DNA of 64,000 nucleotides from Dyadobacter sp. 676 (GTDB lineage: Bacteria; Bacteroidota; Bacteroidia; Cytophagales; Spirosomataceae): NCBI RefSeq assembly GCF_040448675.1, contig NZ_CP159289.1, positions 7,175,001-7,239,000 on the forward strand, in the 5' to 3' direction. A program made the position numbers and the translations under genes. Shown one piece after another: positions 10,941 to 64,000 of this stretch (position 1 is its first letter; the number at the start of each line of letters is the position of its first letter). Below the pieces are notes generated by a model, which was not told the DNA's origin, made no database searches, and was given only the letters and a program-made list of their open reading frames with translations.

Positions 10941-11047
10941 CGTGATGCTTGTTTCGTACGTACGGTCTCTTATAGATTACAAATCTAATAATCTTTCCTT
11001 TGAATTGGCTACTTTTGACAGCCCATCATTGAACATATTAGTATCCA

Positions 11048-11689: not shown

Positions 11690-11715
11690 TCAATAAGTTA
11701 ATGAGTGAATGCTTC

Positions 11716-11771
11716 AATGAGTGAATGAGTGAATAGTTTACAGAAACAGATCATTCACTCATTCACTCATT
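11716..11771. terminator. 19-bp perfect hairpin made of TGAGTGAA repeats
   Basis: Perfect inverted repeat (11716-11734 with 11753-11771) built from AATGAGTG units, with an 18-nt loop, between convergent pdxH and gltA. Further TGAGTGAA units lie on both sides (from 11700 and to about 11785). It probably works as a two-way terminator; the repeat composition is unusual. Confidence 0.65.
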
Positions 11772-11787
11772 CAAAATTCACTCATTA

Positions 11788-43206: not shown

Positions 43207-45385
43207 TGAATATCAGTTTTGTACATCTTCAAAATTTCAGAAAACTAAAAGGACTGCCGCATAGAGTTCTCAATGAAAGAAACAATTTTCGTTGGGCCTA
43301 ATAACAGCGGAAAGACAACAGCGATGGACGCGCTGATTCTATTCTTAAAAGCGCGGCATAAATTCACAACTCGAGATTTTACCATCTCAAACTGGCGCTC
43401 GATCAATGATATTGGCTACGTATGGGCAAATGAAGCAGAGTTCGCCAAACTTGACTTGCGGATGGATCAATGGGAGCAGTATTTACCGACATTGGACGTA
43501 TGGCTCAATGTCAGTTCAAAAGAGGTTCACTATGTTAGTCATTTAATACCGACCCTTGAATGGACAGGCGGCGTGCTAGGGATCCGGCTACGATTTGAAC
43601 CAGAAAATTTACTTGATTTATACAACGAATTCAGCACACAGTATAATAATTCAAAAAAGGTAAGTAACGCCAAAAAAAAAGAAGGAAAAATAAACTTATG
43701 GCCAAAAGACCTTTGGGATTTCCTAGATAAACATCTCGGAAAATTCTTTACTGTAAGAACATATCTACTTAATCCGGAACTACACGAATCGCCTCAAAAG
43801 CTTGAATCGACAAATCTGCCATTGGACATAGATGCCTTTAACGGGCTTATAAAAGTTGATATTATAAATGCGCAACGAGGATTTTCCGATCCGAATTCCG
43901 AATTAGCAGATGCATCTACTACCAACAAAACTTTATCCAGCCAGTTAAGAAGTTATTATGATAAGCACTTGAACCCAGCCATTAACCCTACGGAAGCGGA
44001 TTTGAGTGCATTGGAAATGATCTATAATGCTAAAGAATCCTTTGATGACAATCTAAAACAAAGTTTTGCGGCTCCACTTAAAGAGCTTGAATTCCTAAAC
44101 TACCCCGGCTTTGGGAACCCGAAAATAAAGCTCTCAACCATAATCAATACTGTCGAAGGATTGAGTCATGAATCCGCAGTGCAATATTTTCTGGATGAAA
44201 GTATGTTGGACCTCTCGCTGCCAGAGAAATATAATGGACTGGGCTACCAAAATCTTATATCCATTATATTTAAACTAATCCGGTTTAGGGATGAATGGAT
44301 GCAGGTTGGAAAGGGAATTAAGACGGCATCAGGAGAGTCCGATTTTAGCTTTGAACCATTGCACCTAGTCCTGATCGAAGAGCCTGAAGCACATTTACAC
44401 GCACAGGTCCAACAGGTTTTTATCAAGCAGGCCTTTAATACTCTGCGGCGGCATGATAATCTAAGCGATAATAATTTCACCACCCAGCTAGTCATTAGCA
44501 CACATTCAAATCACATAGCACACGAAGTCGATTTCAACTGCTTGCGATACTTTAAGAGGCAAATTGAGCATGGGAAGAGCCTGCACACTTCGAAAGTTGT
44601 CAATTTATCCAGGACGTTCGGTGATGAAACTGAGACTACTAAATTTGCCATTCGATACCTTAAGACAACACATAGTGATCTTTTTTTTGCTGACGCGGTA
44701 ATTATGGTTGAGGGCCCAGCAGAACGCATGCTGATTCCCTACTTTATTAAACACCACACTAAAATGAGTAATTGCTACATCTCCATACTGGAAATCGGAG
44801 GCAGCCACGCTCATACTTTAAAACCGCTTATCGAGAGCTTGGGGATAATAAGTCTAATCATAACGGATATTGATTCAATTGATCCGGAAAATCATAATAG
44901 TAAAGTGCCCCCCCGAACTTCGAAAGGGCTTCAAGTCGGGAAATGACACTTTAGCGGAATGGCTTCCGGGAACAAGAGATCTAGACAAACTCTTGGGATT
45001 TTCACAGGATGCTAAGGTCGATAAAAGCTATCCCGTCAGAGTAGCATATCAATTTAAGGTGAGTGAGATGAACGGAGAAAAAGAATCTATTGTCTACCCG
45101 TACACGTTTGAAGATTCGCTTGTTCTTGAAAACCGAGGGTTATTTCAAGGTCTCGAAAAGGGTACCGGTCTGTTGAGAAAAATGTGTGCTGCTGCCAAAG
45201 AAACAGATTTTGAAAAGTCAGCCCAGTTGATGTATAAGGAAATAACTGAGAAGGGTGCTAAAAAGGCAGAATTCGCCCTTGAGTTATTCTATTTTCAAGA
45301 CCCAAACATCTTAAAAACACCCCTATATATCGAAGAAGGATTGAATTGGCTGGAAGGCAAACTAGCCGCTGGGAAACCCCTTTAA
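43207..45385 (+). pseudogene. OLD-family ATPase/TOPRIM nuclease (GajA-like), two frameshifts as sequenced
   Basis: Three frames make one protein of about 720 residues. MNISFVHLQNFRKLK starts at 43207; after one G in AAAAGG is removed (43245-43251) the frame continues RIEFSMKETIFVGPNNSGKTT (Walker A). The ABC-type ATPase ends with LVLIEEPEAHLHAQ (Walker B) and VISTHSNHIAHE. The TOPRIM domain has VEGPAERMLIPYF and IITDIDS. At the C7 run 44908-44914 one C too many moves the frame; from there PELRKGFKSGNDTLAEWLPG continues to 45385. Together with the helicase behind it this fits Gabija/class 2 OLD systems, in which the nuclease cuts phage DNA. Confidence 0.8.
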
Positions 45386-45414: not shown

Positions 45415-47322
45415 ATGGTACAGGTTGCACCCAACAGCATCGATGATACGGTTGATGATGTAATATACGACTGTCTGACACCATCGGCTCCTAAAAGCTT
45501 TTTTCTGTTTGCGGGAGCCGGATCTGGGAAAACAAGGTCGCTAGTTAACGTTCTAACAAAATTCAAACTTAACCACGGCAACAGATTTCGTCTGTTGAGA
45601 AAGAAAGTTGCAATCATAACTTACACAAATGCTGCTGCTGACGAAATCACTCATCGACTAGATCATGATGACATATTTGTTGTCAGCACTATCCATAGCT
45701 TTTCCTGGGAACTGGTTAAAAACTTTACGCATGATATACGCTATTGGCTCAAATTCAATCTCAGCGAGGAAATCAAGATTCTTGAGGAGGAGCAATCAAA
45801 AAGCCGAAATCTCAACAACAAGACCTCCATTGCTCGAGCCCTCAGGATCGATTCTAAAAAGAAACGACTAGTGCATCTTGATAACGTAGTGAGGTTCACC
45901 TACAACCCCAATGGAGACAATATTACAAAGGACTCTATAAACCATGCTGAGGTAATCAGTATGACGGCAAGCTTTATTCAGAGTAAGCCGCTGATGCAAG
46001 ACATATTGACATGTAAATTTCCAATAATCTTTGTCGATGAAAGTCAAGATACAAAGAAGGAACTAGTAGATGCGCTGTTTACATTACAACACGCTAAGAG
46101 AGATTGCCTTACACTCGGATTGTTTGGGGATACCATGCAGCGAATCTACTCCGATGGGAAGGAGAACTTAGGCACTGAACTTCCTGCCGACTGGCTTCAA
46201 CCAGCAAAGAAGATGAATCATCGGTCAAGTAAGCGTATTATCAATTTAATCAATGACATTAGAAAGAATGTTGACGATCAGAAACAGATACCAAGGACCG
46301 AGCAAAGAGACGGATATGTTAGATTTTTTATTGCGAAGCGAGGTAGCGATAAATCCGCGATCGAAGAAAATGTGTGCTCGGAAATGGCGTCGGTGACTGC
46401 AGACCAGCTTTGGACGACCGATACTATTGATACAAAGTTCTTAATTCTGGAACACCACATGGCGGCGAATCGCCTATCTTTCATGGAATTCTTTGAACCA
46501 CTCTACAGAGTCGACAGGTTTAAAACTGGATTAATTGACGGTAGTTTATCGAGTATAAGCTTGTTCACTAAAATCATACTTCCTCTGTATGACGCACATA
46601 AACGTGGCGATCAGTTTTCAATAGCAAGGATTGTGAAAGCAAATGCGCCTTCTCTAACGCGAGAGGCCTTGCTAGCAAGTGTGAATCAAGTCGACGAGAT
46701 AGATATGATGGGTAAGAAAGTGCGAAATTTGTTGGACTTGTGGGAAGGAGGCAGAGATCCGAAATTGATTGAAATCGCCAAAGAAGTTTATAACTCATCC
46801 TTGTTTCAAATCTCGGATAATCTTTCTTTGGTTATATCGAAGGAAGCAAGAGTAAACGCATTAGCAAAGGAAAAATTACACGATGCGGCGGACGACGAGG
46901 AGGAAGAAGTAGATGATGATCTGTTAGTCGCGTTGGGAAACGCACTACAGGCCCCATTTTCATGTATCATAAATTATCATAAATACATTTCCGAAAAGTC
47001 GAAGTTTGGAACACATCAAGGTGTCAAGGGATTAGAGTACCCTCGCGTCATGGTAATAATTGATGACGACGAGGCCAGAGGGTTTATGTTCAGCTACGAC
47101 AAATTGTTCGGAACAAAAGATCTTAGCGAAACAGACAAGAAAAATTTAGAAGATCGTAAAGAAAGCGGTATCGACCGGACAAGAAGGCTCTTTTACGTTG
47201 CCTGCAGCCGCGCCAAAGAGAGCCTCGCTATCGTCGCCTATTCAGATAACCCTGAAATGCTAAAAAGCAATATATTGAAATTCGGCTGGTTTCACGCGGG
47301 TGAGGTTTCAGTTATGGAATAA
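45415..47322 (+). CDS. UvrD/PcrA-like helicase (GajB-like)
   Basis: 635 residues of superfamily 1 helicase. Motif I FLFAGAGSGKTRSL, Ia ITYTNAAADEI, II FVDESQDT, III-like GLFGDTMQRIY, V HQGVKGLEYPRVMVI, VI RRLFYVACSRAKESL. It is 30 bp behind the OLD gene, as GajB is behind GajA. In Gabija the helicase is part of the anti-phage complex. It is longer than B. cereus GajB. Confidence 0.88.
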   Translation: MVQVAPNSIDDTVDDVIYDCLTPSAPKSFFLFAGAGSGKTRSLVNVLTKFKLNHGNRFRLLRKKVAIITYTNAAADEITHRLDHDDIFVVSTIHSFSWELVKNFTHDIRYWLKFNLSEEIKILEEEQSKSRNLNNKTSIARALRIDSKKKRLVHLDNVVRFTYNPNGDNITKDSINHAEVISMTASFIQSKPLMQDILTCKFPIIFVDESQDTKKELVDALFTLQHAKRDCLTLGLFGDTMQRIYSDGKENLGTELPADWLQPAKKMNHRSSKRIINLINDIRKNVDDQKQIPRTEQRDGYVRFFIAKRGSDKSAIEENVCSEMASVTADQLWTTDTIDTKFLILEHHMAANRLSFMEFFEPLYRVDRFKTGLIDGSLSSISLFTKIILPLYDAHKRGDQFSIARIVKANAPSLTREALLASVNQVDEIDMMGKKVRNLLDLWEGGRDPKLIEIAKEVYNSSLFQISDNLSLVISKEARVNALAKEKLHDAADDEEEEVDDDLLVALGNALQAPFSCIINYHKYISEKSKFGTHQGVKGLEYPRVMVIIDDDEARGFMFSYDKLFGTKDLSETDKKNLEDRKESGIDRTRRLFYVACSRAKESLAIVAYSDNPEMLKSNILKFGWFHAGEVSVME

Positions 47323-47924: not shown

Positions 47925-48203
47925 ATGGATCAGTCAGAAGAAATGTTCAAATTAGTGAGACAATGGCGTAAAAGTGGCCTGAGCCAAAGTGAATTCTGCA
48001 AGTTGCACGGCATGACAGTAGCTAAATTTGGCTATTGGGTCGGAAAGGAAAAGTTGGTTGAAAAAGCGACGGGTTTTGTTCGTATATCCGCCCAGCGTTC
48101 GGCCATGGACAATGCTTATGAAGTCATTTATCCAAATGGCGTGCAGGTAAATTATCAGGGCGGTGATCTGACGGTGCTCTCTGAGTTGATCCGGCTTTAC
48201 TAA
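47925..48203 (+). CDS. tnpA: IS66 accessory protein TnpA (copy A)
   Basis: 92 residues, HTH-like N-terminus (VRQWRKSGLSQSEFCKLHGM). Typical first gene of IS66 elements. It ends where the next gene starts. Confidence 0.85.
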   Translation: MDQSEEMFKLVRQWRKSGLSQSEFCKLHGMTVAKFGYWVGKEKLVEKATGFVRISAQRSAMDNAYEVIYPNGVQVNYQGGDLTVLSELIRLY

Positions 48204-48547
48204 TGTTTAGTCTGGGTTCATCCCACCAATATTATCTGTACCGAGGCGATTGCGATATGCGTAAAGGTTTTGATGGACTCTGTGGCCTGGTGGATTCCGA
48301 GTTAGGTAGAGTGGCCACCAGTGGCGAAGTTTTTATCTTTCTTAACCGAAGACGGACCCATCTTAAAATGCTGCATTGGGAGCCGGGAGGCTTTGTACTT
48401 TATTATAAAAGACTGGAAAGTGGCACCTTTCCCTCCCCTAAAAAACAGGCAACCGGAAGTATTTCTTGGAGCGAACTGGTGCTGATGATCGAAGGAATCC
48501 AGGTACTGAAAAGCAGTCGTAGAAAGCGTTTTATTTTACAGCAATAA
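48203..48547 (+). CDS. tnpB: IS66 accessory protein TnpB (copy A)
   Basis: 114 residues, IS66 Orf2 signature DMRKGFDGLCGLV and FIFLNRRRTHLKMLHWEPGGFVLYYKRLE. Required with TnpA for transposition of IS66 elements. Confidence 0.9.
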   Translation: MFSLGSSHQYYLYRGDCDMRKGFDGLCGLVDSELGRVATSGEVFIFLNRRRTHLKMLHWEPGGFVLYYKRLESGTFPSPKKQATGSISWSELVLMIEGIQVLKSSRRKRFILQQ

Positions 48548-48591
48548 GTGCTTTTGCTAGCTTTAAAGGCTGTTTTTCCGTACTTTTAAGT

Positions 48592-48849
48592 ATGCAAAAT
48601 GCCCCGCTGGAAACGCTGGATAAAGACCAATTGCTCGCTCTTTTAAAAGAACGGGATCAGCAGATATCGGGTTTAACCCAGCAGAACGCATACCTGGAAT
48701 CTCAGGTAGAGATGTACAAACGGATGCAGTTCGGTCAAAAGCGTGAACGCTTTGAAGGAGATCCGGCCCAGATTGCGCTTCCCTTTGAAGCTCCTAGCGA
48801 ACAGGCTGCTGCACAAGAAGAAATTCTGCATGAAAAAATCAGCTACATC
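48592..48849 (+). pseudogene. tnpC: IS66 transposase TnpC fragment (copy A)
   Basis: N-terminal coiled-coil region of TnpC, the same as the first ~86 residues of copy B, cut at ISYI by the inserted copy B. The remaining ~415 residues are absent, so it is inactive. Confidence 0.85.
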
Positions 48850-48865
48850 GTATCCGGCCTATCAA

Positions 48866-50374
48866 CTACGTATTTGTTAATTGGTGAACCTTGTTAAAGT
48901 GTTGCGGATACAGGTCAGTGATGTTTTTATGATTGATTGTGGAGATGTTTAGTAGAGTGTTTTTTAGCCAATTGTAGGGATTGACGTTGTGTTTTTTGCA
49001 GATAGCAAAGAAGGAGTAGATCATAGCAGCCCGCTGTGCTGCTTCGTGTGAGCCAGCGAATAAATAGTTTTTCCGGCCCAGGGCCAACGGGCGTATAGAA
49101 TTTTCAATTTGATTATTATCGATCAACAGATTTCCGTCGTATAAGTAGGCACTGAGTGCATCCCAACGGCCGTAACTGTACTGCATCGCCTTTCCGATCT
49201 GGCTTTTTGGGAGCGTACTTTTAATTTGTTCGAAGATCCATTTGCCCAGCTCGTTGATAACTGGAAGGGATTCTGTTAGCCGCAGCTCTTTGATTTCAAC
49301 AGCATCCAGCATCAGTTGGCGGGCTTTCCGCTCCACAGCGTACAGTTGCTGGATCATCGATAGTGCTTTTTGCGCCCTGGTTTTGTCGTTGTCCAGGGCC
49401 CGTTCAAATTCCCGACGCGCATGCGCCCAGCAAGCAAGATGGATAACATCTTTCCGCTTCCCATGCTTTTCATAAACTGCGTAGCCGTCCGTCTGTAGAT
49501 AGCCCTTAAAGCTTTCCAACATCGTCTTCGCTCCTGCTGAGCCTCTTGTCGGTTGGTAATCAAAGAGAACGACATCATCCAAAGGGCTGTGGTAGACCCA
49601 ATAGTATCCCTGATGGCAAGCGCCTTTCTTGTCAGTTTCCAGTACTTTAATCGGACTTTCATCCACCTGCCAATAGCCCTTCGATTTCATATCAAAGACC
49701 AGTTGCTCATAAAGCGGTTCCAGCTTGATCAGCGCTTCTTTGGTCCATCCTTCAAGTGTTGAAGATGCGATCTGGATATTTTCCCTGGCAAAACGCTGCT
49801 TCTGCCGGTAAAGTGGAAGGTGGTCTTGGTATTTATCGGTTAAAATGCTAGCCAGCAGTCCCGCAGATGGTATTCCTTTGTCGATGACCCGCTCGGGAAG
49901 TTGACCGATTCTGACCCCTTCACCATTTTTGGGTGCATATTTATAGCGTATATATCTTTTGATCAAAAAGCGTGCGGGTTCGTAATCCAGCTCTTCAGTA
50001 ACTTCCTTGCCGATACATACCATTTCAGAAAGATCACCGGCAGGATAAATCTCGATCTCTTCGACGGGTAAATGAGAAGGCAGTGCTGCACGGCCCTTAT
50101 GGTTTGGCCTTTTACGGATGTAGCTGATTTTTTCATGCAGAATTTCTTCTTGTGCAGCAGCCTGTTCGCTAGGAGCTTCAAAGGGAAGCGCAATCTGGGC
50201 CGGATCTCCTTCAAAGCGTTCACGCTTTTGACCGAACTGCATCCGTTTGTACATCTCTACCTGAGATTCCAGGTATGCGTTCTGCTGGGTTAAACCCGAT
50301 ATCTGCTGATCCCGTTCTTTTAAAAGAGCGAGCAATTGGTCTTTATCCAGCGTTTCCAGCGGGGCATTTTGCAT
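48866..50374 (-). CDS. tnpC: IS66 transposase TnpC (copy B)
   Basis: 502 residues: N-terminal leucine-rich coiled coil, a short zinc-binding/IS66 linker region, and the DDE catalytic domain (YWQVDESPIKVLE, DGYAVYE, and IENSIRPLALGRKNYLFAGS with the last acid). Length is complete. Confidence 0.93.
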   Translation of the reverse strand: MQNAPLETLDKDQLLALLKERDQQISGLTQQNAYLESQVEMYKRMQFGQKRERFEGDPAQIALPFEAPSEQAAAQEEILHEKISYIRKRPNHKGRAALPSHLPVEEIEIYPAGDLSEMVCIGKEVTEELDYEPARFLIKRYIRYKYAPKNGEGVRIGQLPERVIDKGIPSAGLLASILTDKYQDHLPLYRQKQRFARENIQIASSTLEGWTKEALIKLEPLYEQLVFDMKSKGYWQVDESPIKVLETDKKGACHQGYYWVYHSPLDDVVLFDYQPTRGSAGAKTMLESFKGYLQTDGYAVYEKHGKRKDVIHLACWAHARREFERALDNDKTRAQKALSMIQQLYAVERKARQLMLDAVEIKELRLTESLPVINELGKWIFEQIKSTLPKSQIGKAMQYSYGRWDALSAYLYDGNLLIDNNQIENSIRPLALGRKNYLFAGSHEAAQRAAMIYSFFAICKKHNVNPYNWLKNTLLNISTINHKNITDLYPQHFNKVHQLTNT

Positions 50375-50418
50375 ACTTAAAAGTACGGAAAAACAGCCTT
50401 TAAAGCTAGCAAAAGCAC

Positions 50419-50763
50419 TTATTGCTGTAAAATAAAACGCTTTCTACGACTGCTTTTCAGTACCTGGATTCCTTCGATCATCAGCACCAGTTCGCTCCAA
50501 GAAATACTTCCGGTTGCCTGTTTTTTAGGGGAGGGAAAGGTGCCACTTTCCAGTCTTTTATAATAAAGTACAAAGCCTCCCGGCTCCCAATGCAGCATTT
50601 TAAGATGGGTCCGTCTTCGGTTAAGAAAGATAAAAACTTCGCCACTGGTGGCCACTCTACCTAACTCGGAATCCACCAGGCCACAGAGTCCATCAAAACC
50701 TTTACGCATATCGCAATCGCCTCGGTACAGATAATATTGGTGGGATGAACCCAGACTAAACAT
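50419..50763 (-). CDS. tnpB: IS66 accessory protein TnpB (copy B)
   Basis: Identical in translation to the protein of copy A (48203-48547). Confidence 0.9.
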   Translation of the reverse strand: MFSLGSSHQYYLYRGDCDMRKGFDGLCGLVDSELGRVATSGEVFIFLNRRRTHLKMLHWEPGGFVLYYKRLESGTFPSPKKQATGSISWSELVLMIEGIQVLKSSRRKRFILQQ

Positions 50764-51041
50764 TAGTAAAGCCGGATCAACTCAGAGAGCACCGTCAGAT
50801 CACCGCCCTGATAATTTACCTGCACGCCATTTGGATAAATGACTTCATAAGCATTGTCCATGGCCGAACGCTGGGCGGATATACGAACAAAACCCGTCGC
50901 TTTTTCAACCAACTTTTCCTTTCCGACCCAATAGCCAAATTTAGCTACTGTCATGCCGTGCAACTTGCAGAATTCACTTTGGCTCAGGCCACTTTTACGC
51001 CATTGTCTCACTAATTTGAACATTTCTTCTGACTGATCCAT
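50763..51041 (-). CDS. tnpA: IS66 accessory protein TnpA (copy B)
   Basis: Identical in translation to the protein of copy A (47925-48203); overlaps TnpB by one base. Confidence 0.85.
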   Translation of the reverse strand: MDQSEEMFKLVRQWRKSGLSQSEFCKLHGMTVAKFGYWVGKEKLVEKATGFVRISAQRSAMDNAYEVIYPNGVQVNYQGGDLTVLSELIRLY

Positions 51042-51325: not shown

Positions 51326-52672
51326 TTAAAAGTTGCCGGGCCGGAAAGTGGCAAAGAGCCTTTGCAATAAATTTCTATCGGAAGTAATAATTTCTGCACT
51401 GCCCTTCATTCCATTCCTGAAAGGTAATTGATGGCCATGCTTGGTCACAAGCTTGTTGGGTAGTGTGACGTAGCCCCAAAAAGCGCTGTCGCTACCAGGA
51501 GTGATGGAAAGTTTTGCGAGGGATCCCTCAAGAATACCATATTCTCGAAATGGATAGCCGTCAAGTTTTATTAAGACCGTTTGCCCCTCGCGCAATTTAC
51601 CTAGGTTTGGCTGAGGCAACTTGACTAATCCGAGGTACTTACCATGTAAAGGTTCTACCGTCATCAATTCTTGACCTGCATTTAGAAATTGACGCTCCTG
51701 CCATGGCTCTGAAAATGATATTTTCCCATCGACTGGTACAAATATTAAATATTTATTTTTCCAAGTTTGAATAGAACTTTTCAATGTCTGAATCGATTGA
51801 TGAAAGCTTAGCTTCTGGCTTCTGACCGTAGCATCGAGTTCGAGAAGCTCTTTTTGTTTGAGTTTTCGGGCTGACTGGTTTTGTATCTTTGCTGACTTTA
51901 AGCTTTTGACCGGCATCTCCCGAGCTAATAATTTTGCTCTTTCCTTCATAAAATCTACACTAGAAATGACTTTATTATCATGTAACTTAGATTGTATCCT
52001 AAATTCATCTGCCGCGAGCTCCAGATCTTGATTTTGTATTGTTAATTGCTCATTAATCAGCTCGTCCATCTGAGTTAGGTCATTTTGGTCCTCAATTAAC
52101 AAATGCCGTTTTTGCGTGTAGTAGCCATCAGCTAAAACCGCCTGTAATTTTAAAAGCTCTTGATGAAAAGTTTGAAAGTCTAACTGAATTTCGCCCAAGG
52201 TGTCAAAAGTACTCAAAACCAAAACATTTAGCTTTTCCCAATCACCTGTCATAATGAGTCGATAAACGTCGTCGATCTGCTCCTCTAGTCTTAGAATTTG
52301 TTTGGGATTTCCAGTACTTTCCGAGTATCCAATAATCTGCCCCCGTTTTACTAACTCTCCATCCGCTACCGATAATTTTTCTAGCCTTCCTTCTGTTCTA
52401 ACAACGACCCGTCTGGGAGCATTGGCTGAAGAGAGTAGAAAAGGTGCGGTAATTACATCAGGATAACGGATCCACCACATGGCGGTGAATAGTAATAATA
52501 TTAATAAGATAAACATCGTATTGCCCCAAAGAATAAGCCAATGCGGGGGGCGTCCCAGGACAGCTTGCATCTTTACCGAATGTTCGGGCAACCTCTCAAT
52601 ATGATGTTCCTCAAGCTGCCTACTTTGCTCTTCCGATGATGTAAAATCTTTTGGATAAACGATACCATTCAC
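51326..52672 (-). CDS. HlyD-type membrane-fusion adaptor
   Basis: 448 residues. A single N-terminal membrane span (WLILWGNTMFILLILLLFTA), then a lipoyl-like beta domain half (VVVRTEGRLEKLSVADGELVKRGQIIGY), a long coiled coil (about 130-300), and the second beta half and barrel (LIFVPVDGKISFSEPWQERQFLNAGQELMTVE). Such adaptors join C39-type ABC exporters to an outer-membrane channel. It is the last gene of the peptide operon, 5 bp behind the ABC gene. No TolC is in the window. Confidence 0.9.
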   Translation of the reverse strand: MNGIVYPKDFTSSEEQSRQLEEHHIERLPEHSVKMQAVLGRPPHWLILWGNTMFILLILLLFTAMWWIRYPDVITAPFLLSSANAPRRVVVRTEGRLEKLSVADGELVKRGQIIGYSESTGNPKQILRLEEQIDDVYRLIMTGDWEKLNVLVLSTFDTLGEIQLDFQTFHQELLKLQAVLADGYYTQKRHLLIEDQNDLTQMDELINEQLTIQNQDLELAADEFRIQSKLHDNKVISSVDFMKERAKLLAREMPVKSLKSAKIQNQSARKLKQKELLELDATVRSQKLSFHQSIQTLKSSIQTWKNKYLIFVPVDGKISFSEPWQERQFLNAGQELMTVEPLHGKYLGLVKLPQPNLGKLREGQTVLIKLDGYPFREYGILEGSLAKLSITPGSDSAFWGYVTLPNKLVTKHGHQLPFRNGMKGSAEIITSDRNLLQRLFATFRPGNF

Positions 52673-52677
52673 AATTT

Positions 52678-55047
52678 CTATACAGCTAACTCTAATTGGT
52701 TACTTACTAATTCAAAATACTTACCCTGTCTTGCAACTAGCTCAGAATGGGTGCCGGTTTCAACAACCTGGCCTCCTTCAAGTACAATAATCTGGTCTGC
52801 ATGCTTTACCGTACTTAAACGATGAGCGACCACAACAACTGTCCTTCCCTTAAAAAACTCCTCCAATTTCCTTACAATCATCGCCTCATTGTTGGCATCG
52901 AGCGAATTGGTGGCCTCGTCAAACAACAATAAGCTTGGATCTTTATAAACCGACCGCGCAATCAAAATTCTCTGTCGTTGTCCTTGACTCAGCCCTTTGC
53001 CTGCTGCACCAATAATTGTAAAATATCCTTGTGGTTGCGACTCAATAAATTCATGGATATTGGCAAGCATCGCAGCTTGGCGCAACTTTGTCATATCAAC
53101 GACTTCGTCGGCTACAGCAATATTTTTAGCAATCGTATCAGAAAAAATAAATCCATCTTGCATTACTACGCCGCACTGTCGACGCCACGCTCTATGCGAA
53201 ATATTTTTAAGGTCGAGGGCCATCCTATCAAACCCAACATGATTGCTTAGAACTTCTCTTTCACTCGAACTAGTAAATTTACCCTGATTTGATAAGACGA
53301 TCGCGCCCTCATTCGGTTGATAAAATCGGAGCAAAAGCTTTAGCAGGGTGGTCTTACCGCTTCCACTTGTCCCTACAATCGCAGTTGTTTTGCCATAAGG
53401 GATTTTTAAAGTAATATCTTTTAACACTGGCTCATTGCCAGCACCTGGGTAGGCAAAAGTGATATTTTCAAAATTGATATCCTGTGCAATCTCCCAAACC
53501 GTTCGACCAGGCAGGCTTGCGTTCTCTTCGTCAGGGAGCGAATGCACCTCATTAAGCCGTTCTAAACTCATGCGTGCATCTTGCAAAGCTTGGATAAATC
53601 CAATCAACTGTTCAATCGGTGAATTGAATTGGCCTAGGATGTACTGAATGGACATCATCCCACCAATCGTTAGCTGACCATCTAGAACAGCCTTTGCCGC
53701 AAGAAATGTGACTAGCACGTTCTTACCCTGATTGATAAACAAAGCGCCGGCCTGCTGAATTTGGGAAAGAGATAGTGACCTGACGTTCCATTTGAACACG
53801 GTAGTTTGCACGTTCTCCCAGTCCCACCGTTTAGAAATCTCCGCTCCCGACAACTTAATGTCTTGCATTCCCTGAATCAGTTGAATTATCTGGCTCTGAT
53901 TCTTCGATTGTACATCGAAACGTTGTGAATCAATTGTCCTCCGTTTACCTAAAAAAGCAGCAATCCAAAGAGAGTAAATAACAGCCGAGATAATGGCCAC
54001 GGAAAAAATTGATACGTGATAAAAGGCAAGAAGGACCCCAAATACCAGCAGGTTAACAAATGAAAAAAGAATATTGAGAGTTTGTCCCGTTAAGAAAGCT
54101 TCGATTCTGTGATGGTCGCCAATTCTTTGCATGATATCACCAAACTGCTTCACTTCAAAAAATGAAATCGGCAGGTTCATCAGCTTCGCAAGAAATTCAG
54201 ATAAAATAGCAAGGTTGATTCGAGTGCTAATATGCAACAAAATCCAACTTCGGAGAAAATCAACGGACGCAGTTCCGCAAACTAGCGTCATCTGTGCAAC
54301 TAGGACCAAATAAATAAATGGAAGATTTTGTCCATTTATACCAACATCTACAACGGATTGAGCTAGGATAGGCATCAACACCATCAATGCACTTCCAACC
54401 AACATGCCCAGTCCAAGCTGAACCAGTAGCTTTTTGTACTTCCAGAGGTATGAGACAAGTTGACTAAGCTGGAGGCCATTAGCTTTTTCTCCCTCGTCGG
54501 CAAAAAAAGCTTGTGTGGGTTCCACGACCATAGCCAGTCCCTCTTTTCCTAGCTCATTTTCGCCCAACCAGCGCTTCTCGAACTCTTGAAACGTATACTT
54601 CATCAATCCTTGGGCTGGATCGGCGACGTGGAAGATAATTTTTTCGTCATTCAAATTTGACCCTTCGCCGCTTGGTCTGCCTGATCTTGGACTCTCGTCA
54701 TTTCGATGACGCCTCATTAGATTGGGCCATGAACTACCTGATCTCGGTAACTTTTTAGACACCTTGTGTAGGACAACAAAGTGATTCTGCCCCCAATGCA
54801 ACACACAAGGCAAGGGAACCTGCTCAATTAGGACTTTTATCGGAATGCGAACGCCTAAGGAATGAAGCCCGATCGATTCGGCGGCCTCTGAAATGCCCAA
54901 CATTGAGACGCCTTCTCGACTAATTTGTGCCCTTTCCCGAAGTGTTTGTGCTGTGTAATGCTTTCCATAATGCTGTGCAATCATCCGGAGGCATGTTGGG
55001 CCACAATCCATCTGATCAAGCTGTTTAAAAAAAGGGAAAGATTTCAT
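52678..55047 (-). CDS. Peptidase C39-domain ABC exporter
   Basis: 789 residues from ATG 55047. C39 peptidase domain first: nucleophile Cys in QMDCGPTC (about 15), catalytic His in NHFVVLHK, Asp in VADPAQG; between His and Asp is an unusual insertion rich in Arg, Ser and Gly (about 30 residues). Then six membrane spans (about 225-470) and an ABC domain with GTSGSGKTTLLKLL, LSQGQRQRILIARS and LLLFDEATNSLD. It cuts a GG-type leader and exports the core peptide. An upstream in-frame stretch (to 55140) is not part of the family and is left out. Confidence 0.93.
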   Translation of the reverse strand: MKSFPFFKQLDQMDCGPTCLRMIAQHYGKHYTAQTLRERAQISREGVSMLGISEAAESIGLHSLGVRIPIKVLIEQVPLPCVLHWGQNHFVVLHKVSKKLPRSGSSWPNLMRRHRNDESPRSGRPSGEGSNLNDEKIIFHVADPAQGLMKYTFQEFEKRWLGENELGKEGLAMVVEPTQAFFADEGEKANGLQLSQLVSYLWKYKKLLVQLGLGMLVGSALMVLMPILAQSVVDVGINGQNLPFIYLVLVAQMTLVCGTASVDFLRSWILLHISTRINLAILSEFLAKLMNLPISFFEVKQFGDIMQRIGDHHRIEAFLTGQTLNILFSFVNLLVFGVLLAFYHVSIFSVAIISAVIYSLWIAAFLGKRRTIDSQRFDVQSKNQSQIIQLIQGMQDIKLSGAEISKRWDWENVQTTVFKWNVRSLSLSQIQQAGALFINQGKNVLVTFLAAKAVLDGQLTIGGMMSIQYILGQFNSPIEQLIGFIQALQDARMSLERLNEVHSLPDEENASLPGRTVWEIAQDINFENITFAYPGAGNEPVLKDITLKIPYGKTTAIVGTSGSGKTTLLKLLLRFYQPNEGAIVLSNQGKFTSSSEREVLSNHVGFDRMALDLKNISHRAWRRQCGVVMQDGFIFSDTIAKNIAVADEVVDMTKLRQAAMLANIHEFIESQPQGYFTIIGAAGKGLSQGQRQRILIARSVYKDPSLLLFDEATNSLDANNEAMIVRKLEEFFKGRTVVVVAHRLSTVKHADQIIVLEGGQVVETGTHSELVARQGKYFELVSNQLELAV

Positions 55048-55200
55048 TCTAAGTATCAAAATGAACAAACCTACTTCAAGCACCAGATGCAAACATAAGG
55101 TACTTTGTCGAAGTCGAAAGAAATTCTTGTAACCGAGCACTCATACGTCAGGCCGATACGAAAAAGACAACAAGTCTTCCAGAATATCCGCTTAGCCTGA

Positions 55201-56562
55201 TTAGAAACTGAGTCGATTAAAGATTTGATTAATTGCCGGATCTGACGGTCGCGGTGCATCAGAATCGACCACCTTGCCGCTTTTATCAATAATCATATAT
55301 CTCGGGATCGACTTTACACCATATTTTCGGAGAATGGCGGATTGTATTCCTTTGGGCATAAGAAAGCTTGCGTCCTTATTAAGGCCGATCTGATGCGCCG
55401 CCTTCTGCCAAGCAGCTGGATTTTTGTCGATTGAGATATAGACGAAGTTAATTCCCTTACTTGAATACTGATCACTGAGCCTAGCGGATGCAGGCATTTC
55501 TTCTCGGCAAGGCGCACACCAAGAGGCCCAGAAATCAACGTACGTTATCTTATTGCCAGTGGCTTTTCCGAAAGTCGATTTTTTTCCGGACGAAGTGATG
55601 ACATCGTCGCCTTGGATACTAATCGAGCTGATCCTGTCTATAGTGGACAAATATCTTGAATACTTTGAATCTTCATGAGTAGCCGCAACATCAGCGACTA
55701 ACTGGTCGCGCTCTTTTTTAGTTAGCTTAAACATGGGGCCAGTATTTCTCGGACTATTCAATATACTTACAACTAAGTAGGTTCGCGTCTGACCGGAAAA
55801 ATGCTTCGCCAAAATATCTCGTACAGCTGTCTCGGGATATAGTTTCCTAAGAGCGAACAAACAAGCGTTTGCCGAGTTCCTATACGAACTTAAAAAAAGG
55901 AATCGGTCTTCTTTGAGGCTTGTCTCCGCTTCTTGCGTCATGTCTTTGATATACTGGGCTGGAAACACCACATTTCCAAAACGTAGCTTTCGCTCGGTGA
56001 CATTAAAGAGCTCCACAGCTTCATAAAATTGCACAAAGTGATTGTTAAGATGATTTTCCGCTGCGTATTGCTTTATAAAGCCATCGTAATCTCTATACTG
56101 ACTTTCGAAAGCGTTGTTACGAGATTTGGGATTGGCAACATATTCCTTACCCAAGAAGGAACGTTGAAAAGACAATTGATTAAATGACTCTGAATCAAAC
56201 TTCTTAAAAAAGGCGAGTGGGAACATTAGCTCCCTGTCCCTTTCACTATTTTGTGAAGCTAACTTGACAAACTCATTTGATTTAGTAACTGTGATTCGGT
56301 CACCTTTCTTAAGGAAATAGTCTATTTTGAATCGATTATCTGTGACTTGAAGATCGGATGTGTCATCGAACCTGTTTACTCCGCTTTTTAAAAATTCCAA
56401 GTTTCCGAAATCATCAATATAGTAAAGCCTATTTCCATCAGTCAATTTTACGTCGACTACAATAAAATTGTCCGAGTGTTGGAAATTGTTACACTTCCCG
56501 TTTGCAAGTCCAAATGGAGCAACGACTATCATTGCAACAACGATCTTCACCAATAAATGCAT
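55201..56562 (-). CDS. TlpA-like secreted thiol-disulfide oxidoreductase
   Basis: 453 residues from ATG 56562, where a signal peptide begins (MHLLVKIVVAMIVVAPFGLA). A large N-terminal region of unknown type is followed by a C-terminal thioredoxin fold with the redox motif WCAPC at about 348-352 and cis-Pro in SIPRYMIIDKSG. It is expected in the periplasm, acting on disulfides of the cysteine-rich peptide encoded 70 bp upstream. The longer reading frame (to 56682) would overlap the precursor gene and is rejected. Confidence 0.88.
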   Translation of the reverse strand: MHLLVKIVVAMIVVAPFGLANGKCNNFQHSDNFIVVDVKLTDGNRLYYIDDFGNLEFLKSGVNRFDDTSDLQVTDNRFKIDYFLKKGDRITVTKSNEFVKLASQNSERDRELMFPLAFFKKFDSESFNQLSFQRSFLGKEYVANPKSRNNAFESQYRDYDGFIKQYAAENHLNNHFVQFYEAVELFNVTERKLRFGNVVFPAQYIKDMTQEAETSLKEDRFLFLSSYRNSANACLFALRKLYPETAVRDILAKHFSGQTRTYLVVSILNSPRNTGPMFKLTKKERDQLVADVAATHEDSKYSRYLSTIDRISSISIQGDDVITSSGKKSTFGKATGNKITYVDFWASWCAPCREEMPASARLSDQYSSKGINFVYISIDKNPAAWQKAAHQIGLNKDASFLMPKGIQSAILRKYGVKSIPRYMIIDKSGKVVDSDAPRPSDPAINQIFNRLSF

Positions 56563-56633
56563 AACTATTGTGCTTGCTAATTTGATTGATTTATGTAAAT
56601 CAGACAAAGGGTTTCCCCTTTGCCTGTCACTGA

Positions 56634-56843
56634 TTAACAGCTTGTGCAGCACCAGTAGCCACGACCACCGGCTTCTCCACATTGCTTAGCAAACTTCTTT
56701 GCTTTTTTCTTGGAAACAGTACCATAGCCAGAAATTGGCTCCGATCCTCCGTTTGAGTAACATGACGCGCCACATCCCGCGCCCAAGACATTTTTCATTT
56801 CTGCTCTTGTCAACGCGAAAGCGCTAAAAGACGATAAATTCAT
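56634..56843 (-). CDS. Six-cysteine exported peptide precursor (bacteriocin-like)
   Basis: 69 residues. The first ~23 look like a Bacteroidetes GG-type leader: ALTRAEMKNVLGAG (the typical form is L-x-R-x-E-M-K-x-V-x-GG), cut probably after GAG at position 23. The core of about 46 residues begins CGASCYSNGG, has a lysine-rich helix (KKKAKKFAKQC) and ends GYWCCTSC. Cys are at 24, 28, 55, 65, 66 and 69; Ser/Thr/Gly-rich stretches lie between. Context: C39 exporter, HlyD, two disulfide enzymes and glycosyltransferase around it. I predict an exported, disulfide-bonded antimicrobial or signalling peptide. No close relative is known to me. Confidence 0.82.
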   Translation of the reverse strand: MNLSSFSAFALTRAEMKNVLGAGCGASCYSNGGSEPISGYGTVSKKKAKKFAKQCGEAGGRGYWCCTSC

Positions 56844-56873
56844 GATTTAAATAGAATTAAGTGAAAAAATAAT

Positions 56874-58514
56874 TTATGTGATTTGATCAAATCCAGTAGG
56901 TTGTAGATATCGGCTCAGCTTTTCAATGTCCGAAACAGAATAGAATGGTGGAAGTTTAATATCGTTAAAGATCATAAACGGAGTGTTGGTAATGCCGGCT
57001 AACTCACTCCATCTAACATGCAAGTCAAGCTGACTTATCCCCGTCTCGATCTCTGAAATATTCCTCCTGTTCTCACCTATCCATTGGTCAGCCGTCATGT
57101 TTTGCTTCGCAAACCATCTAGCCAACCCTCCGTTAATCTCCTCGACTGGTAAGCTCAGTAAGTTTCGAGCAATCTTTCCGGATTCGTCTTGAATGTCATT
57201 GTACGCCGCAAAAAGAAAATTGACACGTAAATCGTCCATACGACCTTTAAGCTTGACTACTTGCTCATACATATCTGCGCATGAGCGGCACTTAGGTGTC
57301 AGCACCACAGTCAACACATTATCGGATTCAATGTCTCCAATGCCGCCAACCTTCATTCCATTAAAAAATGGCGGAATAGGCTCCCGCATTTCCATCAAGG
57401 ATTTCAGGTAGTTTGAGGCGAATTTCATTTGCTCGAAAGAGCGACTAACACCAGCGAATTTTATTGACTTTACAAGAGTAGATTGGAACGCCAACCAAGA
57501 GGCAATAGATATTGAAAAACCGATTATAAAAGTGCCGACAACTTGATATGAAATGTGAGAAAAGACGGGAGCCGGGGTAGAGATCACAAATAATAGTTCA
57601 AGAAGCAGCAAAAGTTGTACAACGAGGCACATGACACACCAGCTTTTCCAAATAAATGCCTGGTAGGATACCGAATAAATAGCATATGGAAACGCCAAAA
57701 CACTCAGAGCGCCAATCCAAGGTAGGACTTCGCTGATAGAACCGGTCAGCATTGCAGTAACAATGGTCAACAAAGTACCGAAAAAGTAAATCAGTCCAAT
57801 TTCGGACCATTTGAAGACTCGAAAAAGCCGTGCTGATTTTGAACTCAGTAAGCTTCCGCAACTAGATTTACCGCTTAGATTACATACCTTTCTAAGAACG
57901 GGGTTACTCAAATCAATCCCAGCCCACACTAGCATTGAGCAAACAATTGTACCACAAATTTTTGAAAACAATAGCGGTAGAACTAAACTCGGATCGACTC
58001 CTCCTATGACAGCGAGCGCCACAACGCACGATACGGCAACTAAGCCCAATACCATTGCAGTGGGTTTCCGCAAGGAACTTAAAACTTCATTCCTTCTTTT
58101 CTCTGTATATTCCGGCTCGCCGGAATGTTCCGTTCGCTCCAATAACAAAGTGATTCCAGACCACTTTAGCCGGAAACTATCAATGGCATCTACCTGTCTC
58201 CCAAGGGTTGTATCGATCCATTCCACTTTGTTCTCATCCGCGGATATAATCGTCGCAAGCACTCCACCTCCGACATTCATAAAGCCGAGAGCTGGCATTG
58301 GGGCGGTTTGGAGTTGCTCTATTGATAAGCGCACGGAGATATTTTTGACATGTAAGTCTTGTAAAGTATCCGAAATGGACGTTAATCTAGGAAAATCAGG
58401 ATGATTCCATAACAGATTTTTGACGGTATGAGAGGTAGCGCGAATATCTGCACGCCGAATCAAGTCCAGGGATGCAAGCATCGCATTTTTTTCAGAGGCA
58501 TTCGGATTCATCAA
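56874..58514 (-). CDS. C39-like/VKOR/thioredoxin membrane fusion protein
   Basis: 546 residues. N-terminal ~135 residues resemble an inactive C39-type domain (PDFPRLTSISDTLQDLHVKNISVRLSIEQL). Then a vitamin K epoxide reductase (VKOR) membrane domain with four to five spans, a conserved Cys in NLSGKSSCGSLL and the CxxC motif SWCVMCLV. The C-terminal part (about 390-546) is a thioredoxin-like domain with CRSC in VLTPKCRSCADMYEQ. VKOR proteins make disulfides with quinone as acceptor. It lies 30 bp before the precursor gene and overlaps the upstream glycosyltransferase gene by 23 bp (or starts at 58481). Confidence 0.88.
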   Translation of the reverse strand: MMNPNASEKNAMLASLDLIRRADIRATSHTVKNLLWNHPDFPRLTSISDTLQDLHVKNISVRLSIEQLQTAPMPALGFMNVGGGVLATIISADENKVEWIDTTLGRQVDAIDSFRLKWSGITLLLERTEHSGEPEYTEKRRNEVLSSLRKPTAMVLGLVAVSCVVALAVIGGVDPSLVLPLLFSKICGTIVCSMLVWAGIDLSNPVLRKVCNLSGKSSCGSLLSSKSARLFRVFKWSEIGLIYFFGTLLTIVTAMLTGSISEVLPWIGALSVLAFPYAIYSVSYQAFIWKSWCVMCLVVQLLLLLELLFVISTPAPVFSHISYQVVGTFIIGFSISIASWLAFQSTLVKSIKFAGVSRSFEQMKFASNYLKSLMEMREPIPPFFNGMKVGGIGDIESDNVLTVVLTPKCRSCADMYEQVVKLKGRMDDLRVNFLFAAYNDIQDESGKIARNLLSLPVEEINGGLARWFAKQNMTADQWIGENRRNISEIETGISQLDLHVRWSELAGITNTPFMIFNDIKLPPFYSVSDIEKLSRYLQPTGFDQIT

Positions 58515-59862
58515 TGTATTTTTTTAACAGTTTCTTAATTTCCTTGGGGGAATACGTAGCCCTTAATTTCTTACTCATCTCGTCAATATTTTTCTTATAT
58601 ACGCCGTTTCCGAGAAGTCGATTAATTTTGTCATATATATCACTCGCCCTTTCATGCCTGAATTCTCCTTTTAGGCCAATTCCATGATGTACAACTTTGA
58701 ATGCATTTCCATTTTGGTCATACCGCATGTCCAAAGGATAAACGAGCATTGGTGTTCCGCAAAAAATAGACTCTTTGACAGATCCCAATCCCCCGTGCGT
58801 CACGAATAAGTTAGCTACTTTTAGAACCTCCAACTGTGCCACACTTTTGAAAAAGTAAAATGGCTTTTTAATTGTCATATTATGCACTATTGTATCAATA
58901 ACAAGTTGATTAACAGAGAATATTACAACCACATCATCAATTCTCTCTAGCGCAGAAATCAGTTTCTCTAAAAAATCAAAAAGTGCGCGATCTGAACCCT
59001 CATAAAATGTACCAAAACTGCAATAAATCAACTTTCTCCCATTCAAACCCTGAACAATATTTCTGAAAACACTGGAAAATAGTTCATCCTCTTCTGGGCT
59101 CTGACGCTGATCATTGACCGATAATCCTAAATAAACTTGGTGTTCTCGACGAATTGACGGCGATATCTCCAGCTCAAGCGGAGCTAAAATAAATTCTCTA
59201 AAATTATTGAATATTAATGCCTTAGTACAGTCTTTCGATATCGGATGGCGAGTTGAAAATTCGTTATGTCTTAGTATGTGCTTAAACCGGTATTCTCTCG
59301 CAAGTCTCAAAATCAGCGACTTCGGCTGAACAACCATGGCTTTAATCAAATTTACAAATCTAGTATCTTTACCTGCGCCAGCAGGGACAGTCTTTGGATA
59401 AAAATCTTGGTCAACATTTGGAAAGCCTGGTGTTCTCAGCGTCGACAGCATGGGATTAATTAAAATGTACTGGGCTTGAACGCCTAACGAATTTAGTACC
59501 AATAGGTCAGTACTGTTGAATATATCAATAAAAATTAGAGTTGGCGAAATCTTTGAAATTACTTCACTTAATTCTTTTTGCCTATGTTTGAGGACTTTAT
59601 CTCCCAAAACGCACTTTAATGTCGACCACCACCCAGATTTGCCTAGTGTTGAAGCAACAAAGGAATCTTCCATACCTACTCCGACTCGGTAGTCAGTTGT
59701 AAGTAATGCCTTATAACCATGCGACGCTACTATTGATTTCAAGACCTCATTCGACACTGAGAAGTAGACATCAAACTCCTCTGACAAAACATCACAAAAG
59801 CTAAAAAGAGGGAAAACATGGCTTTTGATCGATGCGGGAAGAAAAAGTGCTACTTTTTGCAT
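58492..59862 (-). CDS. UGT-type (GT-B fold) glycosyltransferase
   Basis: 456 residues from ATG 59862 (QKVALFLPASIKSHVFPLFSF). The C-terminal donor-binding region FVTHGGLGSVKESIFCGTPMLVYPLDMRYDQNGNA is that of macrolide/UDP-glycosyltransferases (GT1). These use a UDP- or other NDP-sugar. First gene of the operon with the VKOR fusion, precursor, TlpA and exporter, so it likely modifies the peptide or its immunity/lipid partner. The frame continues to 60042 but has no sensible protein start there. Confidence 0.88.
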   Translation of the reverse strand: MQKVALFLPASIKSHVFPLFSFCDVLSEEFDVYFSVSNEVLKSIVASHGYKALLTTDYRVGVGMEDSFVASTLGKSGWWSTLKCVLGDKVLKHRQKELSEVISKISPTLIFIDIFNSTDLLVLNSLGVQAQYILINPMLSTLRTPGFPNVDQDFYPKTVPAGAGKDTRFVNLIKAMVVQPKSLILRLAREYRFKHILRHNEFSTRHPISKDCTKALIFNNFREFILAPLELEISPSIRREHQVYLGLSVNDQRQSPEEDELFSSVFRNIVQGLNGRKLIYCSFGTFYEGSDRALFDFLEKLISALERIDDVVVIFSVNQLVIDTIVHNMTIKKPFYFFKSVAQLEVLKVANLFVTHGGLGSVKESIFCGTPMLVYPLDMRYDQNGNAFKVVHHGIGLKGEFRHERASDIYDKINRLLGNGVYKKNIDEMSKKLRATYSPKEIKKLLKKYIDESECL

Positions 59863-60104
59863 TTGATAATTGAAAGTCGAGCACAATATTAAGGAACATT
59901 TGAAAATTATAGCAATTGAAATATATTTGATGAAAATACAAAGTAAATTTTCTCTGATGACTGCGGCAGAAATAAACTGACAATCAACTTGTTGACTAAA
60001 ACAAACCGAATAGTAATTTTGTAAAAAGAAATTATAACTCAATTTTTACGAAATTTCCACCTTTCTCCGTTCTTTTAACGGTTTATCCAAATAACAACTT
60101 TTGA
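59863..60104. other. Divergent promoter region of the peptide cluster
   Basis: About 240 bp, strongly AT-rich, between the minus-strand operon and the plus-strand GT2 gene. It must hold the promoters of both. I see no clear operator by eye. Confidence 0.5.
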
Positions 60105-60992
60105 ATGGATTCTGAAATTTTAGGGCGTTGCACAGTTAACGCCGACGTAGCTGTGATTCTTACTGTATGGCGGCGTGATAATTTACGTGAACAGCTACTA
60201 GCGATTATGGCGCAAACAGTACAGCCAAAGGAGATATGGGTTTGTCAGAATGAAAACTTTATTGATGTCAGAGCCATATTGTCGGAATTCCCAGGAGTTG
60301 AGCATGTACACTCATCTGTTAATTTGAAATATTTTGGTCGTTTCTCCATCGCCAGGCACCTTAAGGCAAAGTTTATTTGGATTTTGGATGATGATCAAAT
60401 ACCATCCCCTAACTGGTTGAAGACCTGCCTAATGATTTGTGAAGCTGAAAACGCCATTGTAAGTAGTGCGGGAAGAATTATACCCGAAAATGATTACTTG
60501 CCCGAGCGAAGTAACAATATTGGCAAGTTTTTCTTCGGAGACGTTCCTCAAACTGGAAATTCAAATACGTGCGCGGAGGATTCAATCGTTGACTATGGTT
60601 GCAATGGGTGGTTCCTGCAGCAACAATGGTTAAGGTATTTTTGGGAAACATCTCCTTTCACATTAGAAATTTCGGAAGACATGCATTTGTCCGCTCTCTG
60701 CAAGATTAGGGCAGGCATACGTACAATCGTTCCGATGCAAACAAGTCCAATCAACTCTGGAAATTTGAAAATCGAGTATGGAAGGGATGAACATGCCTCT
60801 TGGACTAAACCGGGCTTTTTGGAAAAACGGAAGGAGGTACTACATTATCTCATTGACGAACTAGGTTGGCGCCCTACGATGTGGAAGCAAGCTCACACTA
60901 CCAAGAGTGGCGAAGCGACCAAGGATGCACGCTTCAACTTGAGATTACCGATTATATCCAGAATATTCTCCCTTAAAAAGAAACTTGTATAG
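60105..60992 (+). CDS. Family-2 glycosyltransferase
   Basis: 295 residues. GT-A fold start VAVILTVWRRDNLREQLLAIMAQTVQPKEIWV, DDD at 95-97 in FIWILDDDQIPSPNW (metal-binding acids), and SEDMHLS as the likely catalytic base region. It uses a nucleotide sugar; the acceptor is unknown. It is divergent from the peptide operon, and GT2 enzymes are the S-glycosyltransferases of glycocin clusters, so the precursor's Cys or Ser are possible acceptors. A protein or surface glycan substrate is also possible. Confidence 0.85.
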   Translation: MDSEILGRCTVNADVAVILTVWRRDNLREQLLAIMAQTVQPKEIWVCQNENFIDVRAILSEFPGVEHVHSSVNLKYFGRFSIARHLKAKFIWILDDDQIPSPNWLKTCLMICEAENAIVSSAGRIIPENDYLPERSNNIGKFFFGDVPQTGNSNTCAEDSIVDYGCNGWFLQQQWLRYFWETSPFTLEISEDMHLSALCKIRAGIRTIVPMQTSPINSGNLKIEYGRDEHASWTKPGFLEKRKEVLHYLIDELGWRPTMWKQAHTTKSGEATKDARFNLRLPIISRIFSLKKKLV

Positions 60993-63784: not shown

Positions 63785-64000
63785 CACGAGCAACGTATCT
63801 GATGATGCTCATATTTGCGTATATTACGATTACTTTCAACGGTCTGGATATATCCTGATAAGCGGTAGCATTCAAAAAATCAATCAATGGTTTCTGGTTT
63901 GGTGAAATGTAATACTGTGGTAATCGTTCCCTACTTTGGAGAGCTGCCCTGGTATTTTTGGTACTTTATTAAAAGTTGTGAAAATAATCCTGATTTTCAC

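Follow-up and report, generated by a model that had tools for sequence, protein, structure and literature searches.

Glycocin clusters combine a precursor peptide, a family 2 glycosyltransferase (GT2), a C39 exporter, and thiol oxidoreductases in one place, as described in PMC6405829 and PMC12457901, and areas for ribosomally synthesized and post-translationally modified peptides (RiPPs) that bear glycosyltransferases (GTs) have already been noted in Bacteroidales (PMC10352776). Here, we analyzed a peptide cluster of Dyadobacter sp. 676 (Bacteroidota), whose genome forms one contig of 7.28 Mb. The window, i.e., the whole stretch of 64,000 nucleotides under analysis, covers positions 7175001–7239000. 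Since glycocin clusters unite precursor, GT2, C39 exporter, and oxidoreductases, the logic of this cluster is already known; membership in the glycocins fails or stays open with regard to the GT and the core peptide. On balance, we consider it probable that the cluster makes a ribosomal, disulfide-bonded, glycosylated, and exported peptide, whose leader would be held in the cytoplasm by a dead C39 domain next to an inverted VKOR/thioredoxin oxidase. The gene set, domain folds, C39 active-site loss, redox cysteines, charge pattern, conserved neighborhoods, GT fusions, and cysteine parity were computed.

Gene content and precursor peptide

All seven genes named in the original prediction were confirmed in the window with intact reading frames. 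Those on the minus strand encode a UGT-type (GT-B) glycosyltransferase of 456 aa (58492–59862, probable start 59862; matches to UDPGT and MGT-type models), a membrane fusion of 545 aa with six transmembrane (TM) helices comprising a C39-like (apparently dead protease) domain, VKOR, and a DsbA-like thioredoxin (56874–58511, probable start 58511), the precursor peptide of 69 aa (56634–56843), a TlpA-like thioredoxin with a WCAPC motif and a start judged signal-peptide-like by eye (55201–56562, probable start 56562), a C39 peptidase ABC exporter possessing both DCGPTC and the catalytic His (52678–55047, probable start 55047), and an HlyD-type adaptor assigned by domain match (51326–52672). On the plus strand, a GT2 (GT-A) glycosyltransferase of 295 aa was identified by domain match and fold (60105–60992).

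The precursor consists of the leader MNLSSFSAFALTRAEMKNVLGA (56778–56843) and a core of 47 aa (56637–56777), whose six cysteines are spaced CX3C ... C ... CCX2C. The calculated mass of the core is 4771.12 Da in the reduced state and 4765.07 Da with three disulfides. With L(−12), E(−8), M(−7), and GA(−2, −1), the leader matches the exporter consensus, given in PMC6363468 as Leu(−12)-X3-Glu(−8)-Leu(−7) followed by Gly-Gly/Ala/Ser at the cleavage site. The cluster thereby holds the double-glycine precursor and C39 ABC exporter that characterize glycocins. Near-identical leaders, e.g., MSLSSFSAFALTRAEMKNVVGG, occur in relatives, where they are paired with differing cores.

The C39-like/VKOR/thioredoxin fusion protein

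The C39 fold of the N-terminal domain was found by fold comparison. In the aligned columns, for which 12 exporters served as the active comparison set, the catalytic Cys is present in 0 of 31 fusion C39-like domains and the His in two; judged by these residues, the C39 domain of the fusion is a catalytically dead protease. The VKOR part matched a VKOR structure by fold only, with no match by sequence. Six redox cysteines are retained in the window protein (C210, C218, C292, C295, C408, and C411), so that it contains the VKOR core with Cys pair and CxxC as well as the thioredoxin CxxC typical of bacterial VKOR–thioredoxin proteins. The domains of the originally proposed fusion were thus confirmed, while the dead protease and the inverted-looking VKOR unit had been overlooked.

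Loop charges of the fusions are opposite to those of ordinary VKORs. As L078, an ordinary VKOR of the class that is not among the 32 VKOR open reading frames (ORFs) compiled, looked ambiguous by eye, a larger control was set up. It comprised 19 of the 32 ORFs; six with a C39 domain, the split fusion L124, and six odd or poor matches (L071, L072, L079, L105, L116, and L125, by eye or score) were set aside, and returning the latter six left the result unchanged. Because of the reversed charges, the oxidase, the thioredoxin domain, and the C39-like domain probably face the cytoplasm. Furthermore, the C39-like domain and the first TM helix align with PCAT1, whose protease domain is cytoplasmic.

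Conserved neighborhoods and in-frame fusions

UGT relatives were located within ~1 kb of a C39-like/VKOR gene in 12 of 20 Dyadobacter loci, and three more of these loci have the C39 exporter alone within 10 kb. At 11 of 12 Dyadobacter loci, a C39 ABC exporter is encoded at a distance of up to ~10 kb from the GT2 relative; the twelfth locus (L050) contains a GT2 fragment only. A surface-glycan setting of the GTs without a precursor, which had been named as evidence that would contradict the original prediction, was considered and rejected for Dyadobacter, where these neighborhoods show the C39 exporter instead.

Two in-frame fusions join GTs directly to the scaffold. In Dyadobacter sp. CY356 (L037), a single 798-aa frame comprises C39-like, VKOR, and thioredoxin-like parts together with a GT2 that belongs to the same family as that of the window, and in D. 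tibetensis (L035), an 827-aa frame combines the C39-like/VKOR/thioredoxin-like scaffold with a PLOD-type GT (PF25342, 1.1e-29). In both, the GT joins at the same end and, judged by eye, no TM segment is added in the linker. The conserved neighborhoods and the two fusions bear out the claim that the Cys-rich double-glycine peptide, the disulfide enzymes, and the GTs belong together, and on these grounds a glycosylated peptide appears well supported, though not proven.

In the fusions of L035 and L037, the VKOR CxxC is still present, but the loop cysteines of VKOR and the thioredoxin CxxC are gone. L040 shows a thioredoxin CxxC but neither the Cys pair nor the CxxC of VKOR; in L016, the C39-like part alone remains. 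The six double-glycine cores of L016, L037, and L040 contain 0, 0, 0, 0, 0, and 1 Cys, and none was found in L035 and L015. Loci with lost VKOR cysteines, therefore, have cores with 0–1 Cys and a UGT that is still present; abandoning disulfides thus does not entail the loss of the C39-like part or of the GTs. Small HTH-like proteins (by eye) that end in a double-glycine leader motif plus a short Cys-free tail are encoded in L016 (11943–12260, minus strand) and L037 (7755–8087, plus strand). Close to the clusters L037 and L016, there are also Rce1-like genes, which resemble bacteriocin immunity genes.

In three Dyadobacter loci, the dead C39 domain is fused to a 2-oxoglutarate (2OG)-Fe(II) oxygenase (PF13640, ~1e-12 each), namely L137 (10555–11676, minus strand), L138 (9261–10274, plus strand), and L139 (9414–10436, minus strand), each near C39 exporters and double-glycine-like precursors. 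L137 also contains genes for a PLOD-type GT, a radical SAM protein, and an ATP-grasp protein. Being the common factor across VKOR, GT, and 2OG oxygenase fusions, the dead C39 domain looks like a leader-binding or leader-holding module, as far as fold and gene context tell.

Cysteine parity of the cores

Of the 48 cores in loci whose C39-like/VKOR gene is Cys-intact, 45 have an even number of cysteines; 29 loci contributed, and in 26 of them every count is even. The binomial p-value of 1.3e-10 is optimistic because cores of one locus are related. The 48 cores were drawn from 62 rows, of which 14 were excluded: L013_6411 (an HlyD start), two rows of L016, five of L036, three of L037, and one each of L040, L042, and L081. 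The count includes four loci (L012, L031, L051, and L062) in which the fusion gene contains an interruption or is divided between two ORFs. Cores found later form a separate set (L134–L136 with 8, 6, and 6 Cys; L138 and L139, both 2OG clusters, with 3 Cys each). Even counts are consistent with all core cysteines being paired in disulfides and leave no spare Cys, so that S-glycosylation of Cys was judged unlikely.

The glycosyltransferases and their distribution

A profile built from 17 UGT relatives found solved UGTs with a best E of 3.1e-27, and the UGT also scores against macrolide-type GT models, among them one self-immunity model. In the GT2, which adopts a GT-A/GT2 fold, DDD 95–97, ED 191–192, and H194 are invariant in nine aligned sequences, including that of the window. 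Its closest structural neighbors among the matches listed are chiefly polysaccharide enzymes. No SunS-type family was matched in NCBIfam at E ≤ 1, a library that we take to include a SunS-type model, and no solved structure matched the GT2 profile at E ≤ 0.01; SunS is not among the best 50 structure matches listed, which proves nothing on kinship. AvpGT (9jma) was rejected as a candidate, the structure being assigned to a nucleoside-glucosylating enzyme.

Matches to the fusion protein of the window came from 26 of the 395 genomes scanned in the class, its own genome counted; two of the weakest matches (G078 and G293) are exporter-sized ORFs. A scan of 84,980 species, with one genome per species, yielded 18 GT2 loci. 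Eight of them belong to Dyadobacter, every one with a strong C39-exporter match; three of these eight (L086–L088) have a radical-SAM context and no VKOR fusion. A GT2 relative in Parabacteroides (L095) lies near a double-glycine peptide. An uncultured member of the Flammeovirgaceae (L085) combines a VKOR fusion and a 6-Cys precursor with exporter and HlyD as well as with a UGT relative, a GT2, and three sulfotransferase genes, a counterexample to a restriction of the GTs to the window's family. The sulfotransferase genes (10783–13062, plus strand) are located immediately behind the GT2 gene, which suggests sulfated sugars or a sulfated peptide.

Proposed pathway and alternative explanations

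From these results, we infer a scheme for leader binding, membrane side, electron acceptor, glycosylation and its site, step order, and biological role. On the cytoplasmic side, the catalytically dead C39-like domain of the membrane fusion would take hold of the double-glycine leader, and in this state the attached DsbA-like domain would form the disulfides of the core. An inverted VKOR unit with a cytoplasmic active site would re-oxidize the DsbA-like domain and pass the electrons to membrane quinone. Also in the cytoplasm, sugars would be added by the UGT, and GT2 would be a second transferase or extend the sugars already present; the most likely acceptors are Ser, Thr, or Tyr and not Cys. 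The C39 exporter would then cleave behind Gly-Ala, and the core would leave via HlyD and an outer-membrane channel in a type I-like manner, with the TlpA-like protein possibly proofreading disulfides in the periplasm. The peptide could act either as an antibacterial or as a signal. More tentatively, and as an idea that we rate somewhat short of probable, dead C39 domains may represent a second RRE-like class of leader recognition in Bacteroidota. Carried by inverted VKOR/thioredoxin oxidases, GTs, and 2OG oxygenases, they would direct cytoplasmic disulfide formation, glycosylation, and hydroxylation of double-glycine precursors before export and thereby define a family of glycosylated, disulfide-rich, and partly hydroxylated collagen-like RiPPs.

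Several observations weigh against the proposed pathway. A disulfide catalyst within the reducing cytoplasm is unusual, the positive-inside rule is a prediction, and the sequences compared are kin and not independent; one ordinary VKOR (L118) has fusion-like charges. The loss of cysteines described above is only partial, since a thioredoxin CxxC is retained in L040 and the VKOR CxxC in L035 and L037, and three cores have odd counts (the second of L014 with 1, L061 with 9, and L067 with 3 Cys). Regarding the GTs, neither scaffold nor C39 exporter was found at five of the 20 UGT loci (L034 at a contig end, L039, L043, L129, and L131); L043 has a 499-aa ABC-type ORF 4 kb from the UGT and was scored as none, as tblastn gave no C39 exporter. 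No GT was found in three of 20 Dyadobacter loci (L013/L140, L132, and L133). In L132 (9678–11291, plus strand) and L133 (8939–10561, plus strand), a large ORF that matches LanB-like proteins only weakly lies a few kb from the C39-like/VKOR gene, and no precursor was found either. Outside Dyadobacter, only two of ten GT2 loci have a strong C39-exporter match (L081 from Parapedobacter and L085), with weak ABC matches only in L090, L092, and L097 and none in L091, L094, L095, L096, and L098; the GT2 family thus also occupies other settings. No counterpart of the window's UGT was found at 16 loci of other families that carry a C39-like/VKOR gene; at these loci, no GT is among the 25 commonest Pfam families of 105 neighboring ORFs and the sole GT identified is of the Branch type (L053). 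Glycosylation would, for this reason, be at most a lineage-specific addition. Disulfide-only peptides look like the commoner state, and glycosylation like a trait added in the window's family.

These points bear differently on the alternatives. That the peptide is disulfide-bonded and unglycosylated, with the GTs acting elsewhere, e.g., on a surface glycan or a self-protection target, is rather improbable in our judgment; the 16 loci without a UGT relative, the macrolide-type and self-immunity matches of the UGT, the polysaccharide enzymes around GT2, and the eight of ten GT2 loci without a strong exporter match all favor it, and the Dyadobacter neighborhoods and GT fusions support glycosylation of the peptide as originally predicted. 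We also regard it as unlikely that the VKOR/thioredoxin unit has the ordinary periplasmic orientation. In that case, the core would acquire its disulfides only once exported and freed of its leader, and the C39-like domain would be a periplasmic relic or a holder of the core. Ordinary bacterial VKORs face outward, and the ordinary VKOR L078 has its solved relative in the Synechococcus VKOR; moreover, glycocin clusters employ a DsbB-like and a thioredoxin-like protein (PMC6405829). The opposite loop charges, the alignment with PCAT1, and the GTs fused at the same scaffold end without an extra TM segment speak against this orientation.

A true glycocin, with GT2 glycosylating a core Cys like SunS, is very improbable, although the gene ensemble equals palA/palS/palT/thioredoxin/DsbB-like as described in PMC6405829, and PMC12457901 reports a glycocin with seven Cys that is S- and O-glycosylated and a related precursor with eight. 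The 6-Cys core and the even counts of its relatives speak against S-glycosylation, and by sequence GT2 matched neither a SunS-type family nor a solved structure. The predicted glycocin-like membership is therefore not supported.

Genomic surroundings

Another cluster of this type (L004) starts 2.9 kb beyond the GT2 gene and lies nearly completely outside the window, separated from the first by a tyrosine integrase. It comprises a DUF6625 gene (putative GT; 5′ end at 63887–64000, plus strand, the rest beyond the window), HlyD, a C39 exporter, a 64-aa precursor with a 6-Cys core, a VKOR fusion, and a TlpA-like protein. On the other side, PADLOC identified a Gabija anti-phage pair on the plus strand (GajA, 43273–44946, E 4e-221; GajB, 45415–47322, E 3e-243), directly upstream of the insertion sequences that adjoin the peptide cluster. 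The latter are two opposed IS66 copies (47925–48897, plus strand; 48866–51041, minus strand), identical over 900 bases counted from the start of the first ORF, the plus copy being truncated within the transposase gene. Furthermore, three identical tandem ISL3-type transposase ORFs on the minus strand (4491–5339, 5932–6780, and 7373–8221) have a spacing of exactly 1441 bases and represent either a tandem array of insertion sequences or an assembly repeat.

Comparison with known systems

The RiPP recognition element (RRE, PqqD-like) is a module with which unrelated modifying enzymes bind leader peptides, and its fold differs from the C39-like fold. The term "C39" is absent from the text of the RRE paper PMC12710340, and an account of a C39-like/VKOR fusion in RiPP biosynthesis was not found in searches of open-licence PMC. 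If our interpretation is true, dead C39 domains constitute a new way to steer enzymes onto a peptide, which hints at how RiPP enzymes lacking a known recognition element locate their substrates. New RiPP families could then be searched for by the fusion of a dead C39 domain with an enzyme, and a natural inverted VKOR could serve as a tool for making disulfide-rich peptides; the cluster would be a Gram-negative counterpart of the glycocins.

Sublancin, glycocin F, pallidocin, and thermoglycocin, as far as described, share precursor, C39 exporter, thiol oxidoreductases, and GT2 with the window cluster. In contrast to these glycocins, the window cluster belongs to Bacteroidota, its GT2 is not SunS-like by sequence, it has an extra UGT, and its Cys counts are even; the paired CX6C helices of sublancin and glycocin F do not occur in the core. 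Bacteroidales RiPP clusters with radical SAM, LanC, and GlyS are GT-bearing within the same phylum, but, according to PMC10352776, use radical SAM/LanC, unlike the window cluster; "thioredoxin", "vitamin K", "disulfide", and "VKOR" are absent from the text of that paper. The Synechococcus VKOR–thioredoxin protein (3kp9/4nv2) has the same relay of Cys pair, CxxC, and thioredoxin CxxC on a VKOR core, whereas the window fusion has an added TM helix, an N-terminal C39-like domain, and opposite loop charges. A precedent from Aeropyrum for a VKOR that acts in two compartments (Hibender 2017) is cited in PMC12453122. While glycocins have separate DsbB-like and thioredoxin-like proteins, VKOR/thioredoxin is fused here to an apparently dead C39 domain, and while the C39-like domains (CLD) of HlyB-type exporters sit on the ABC transporter, those described here sit on modifying enzymes, i.e., VKOR/thioredoxin, GT, and 2OG oxygenase.
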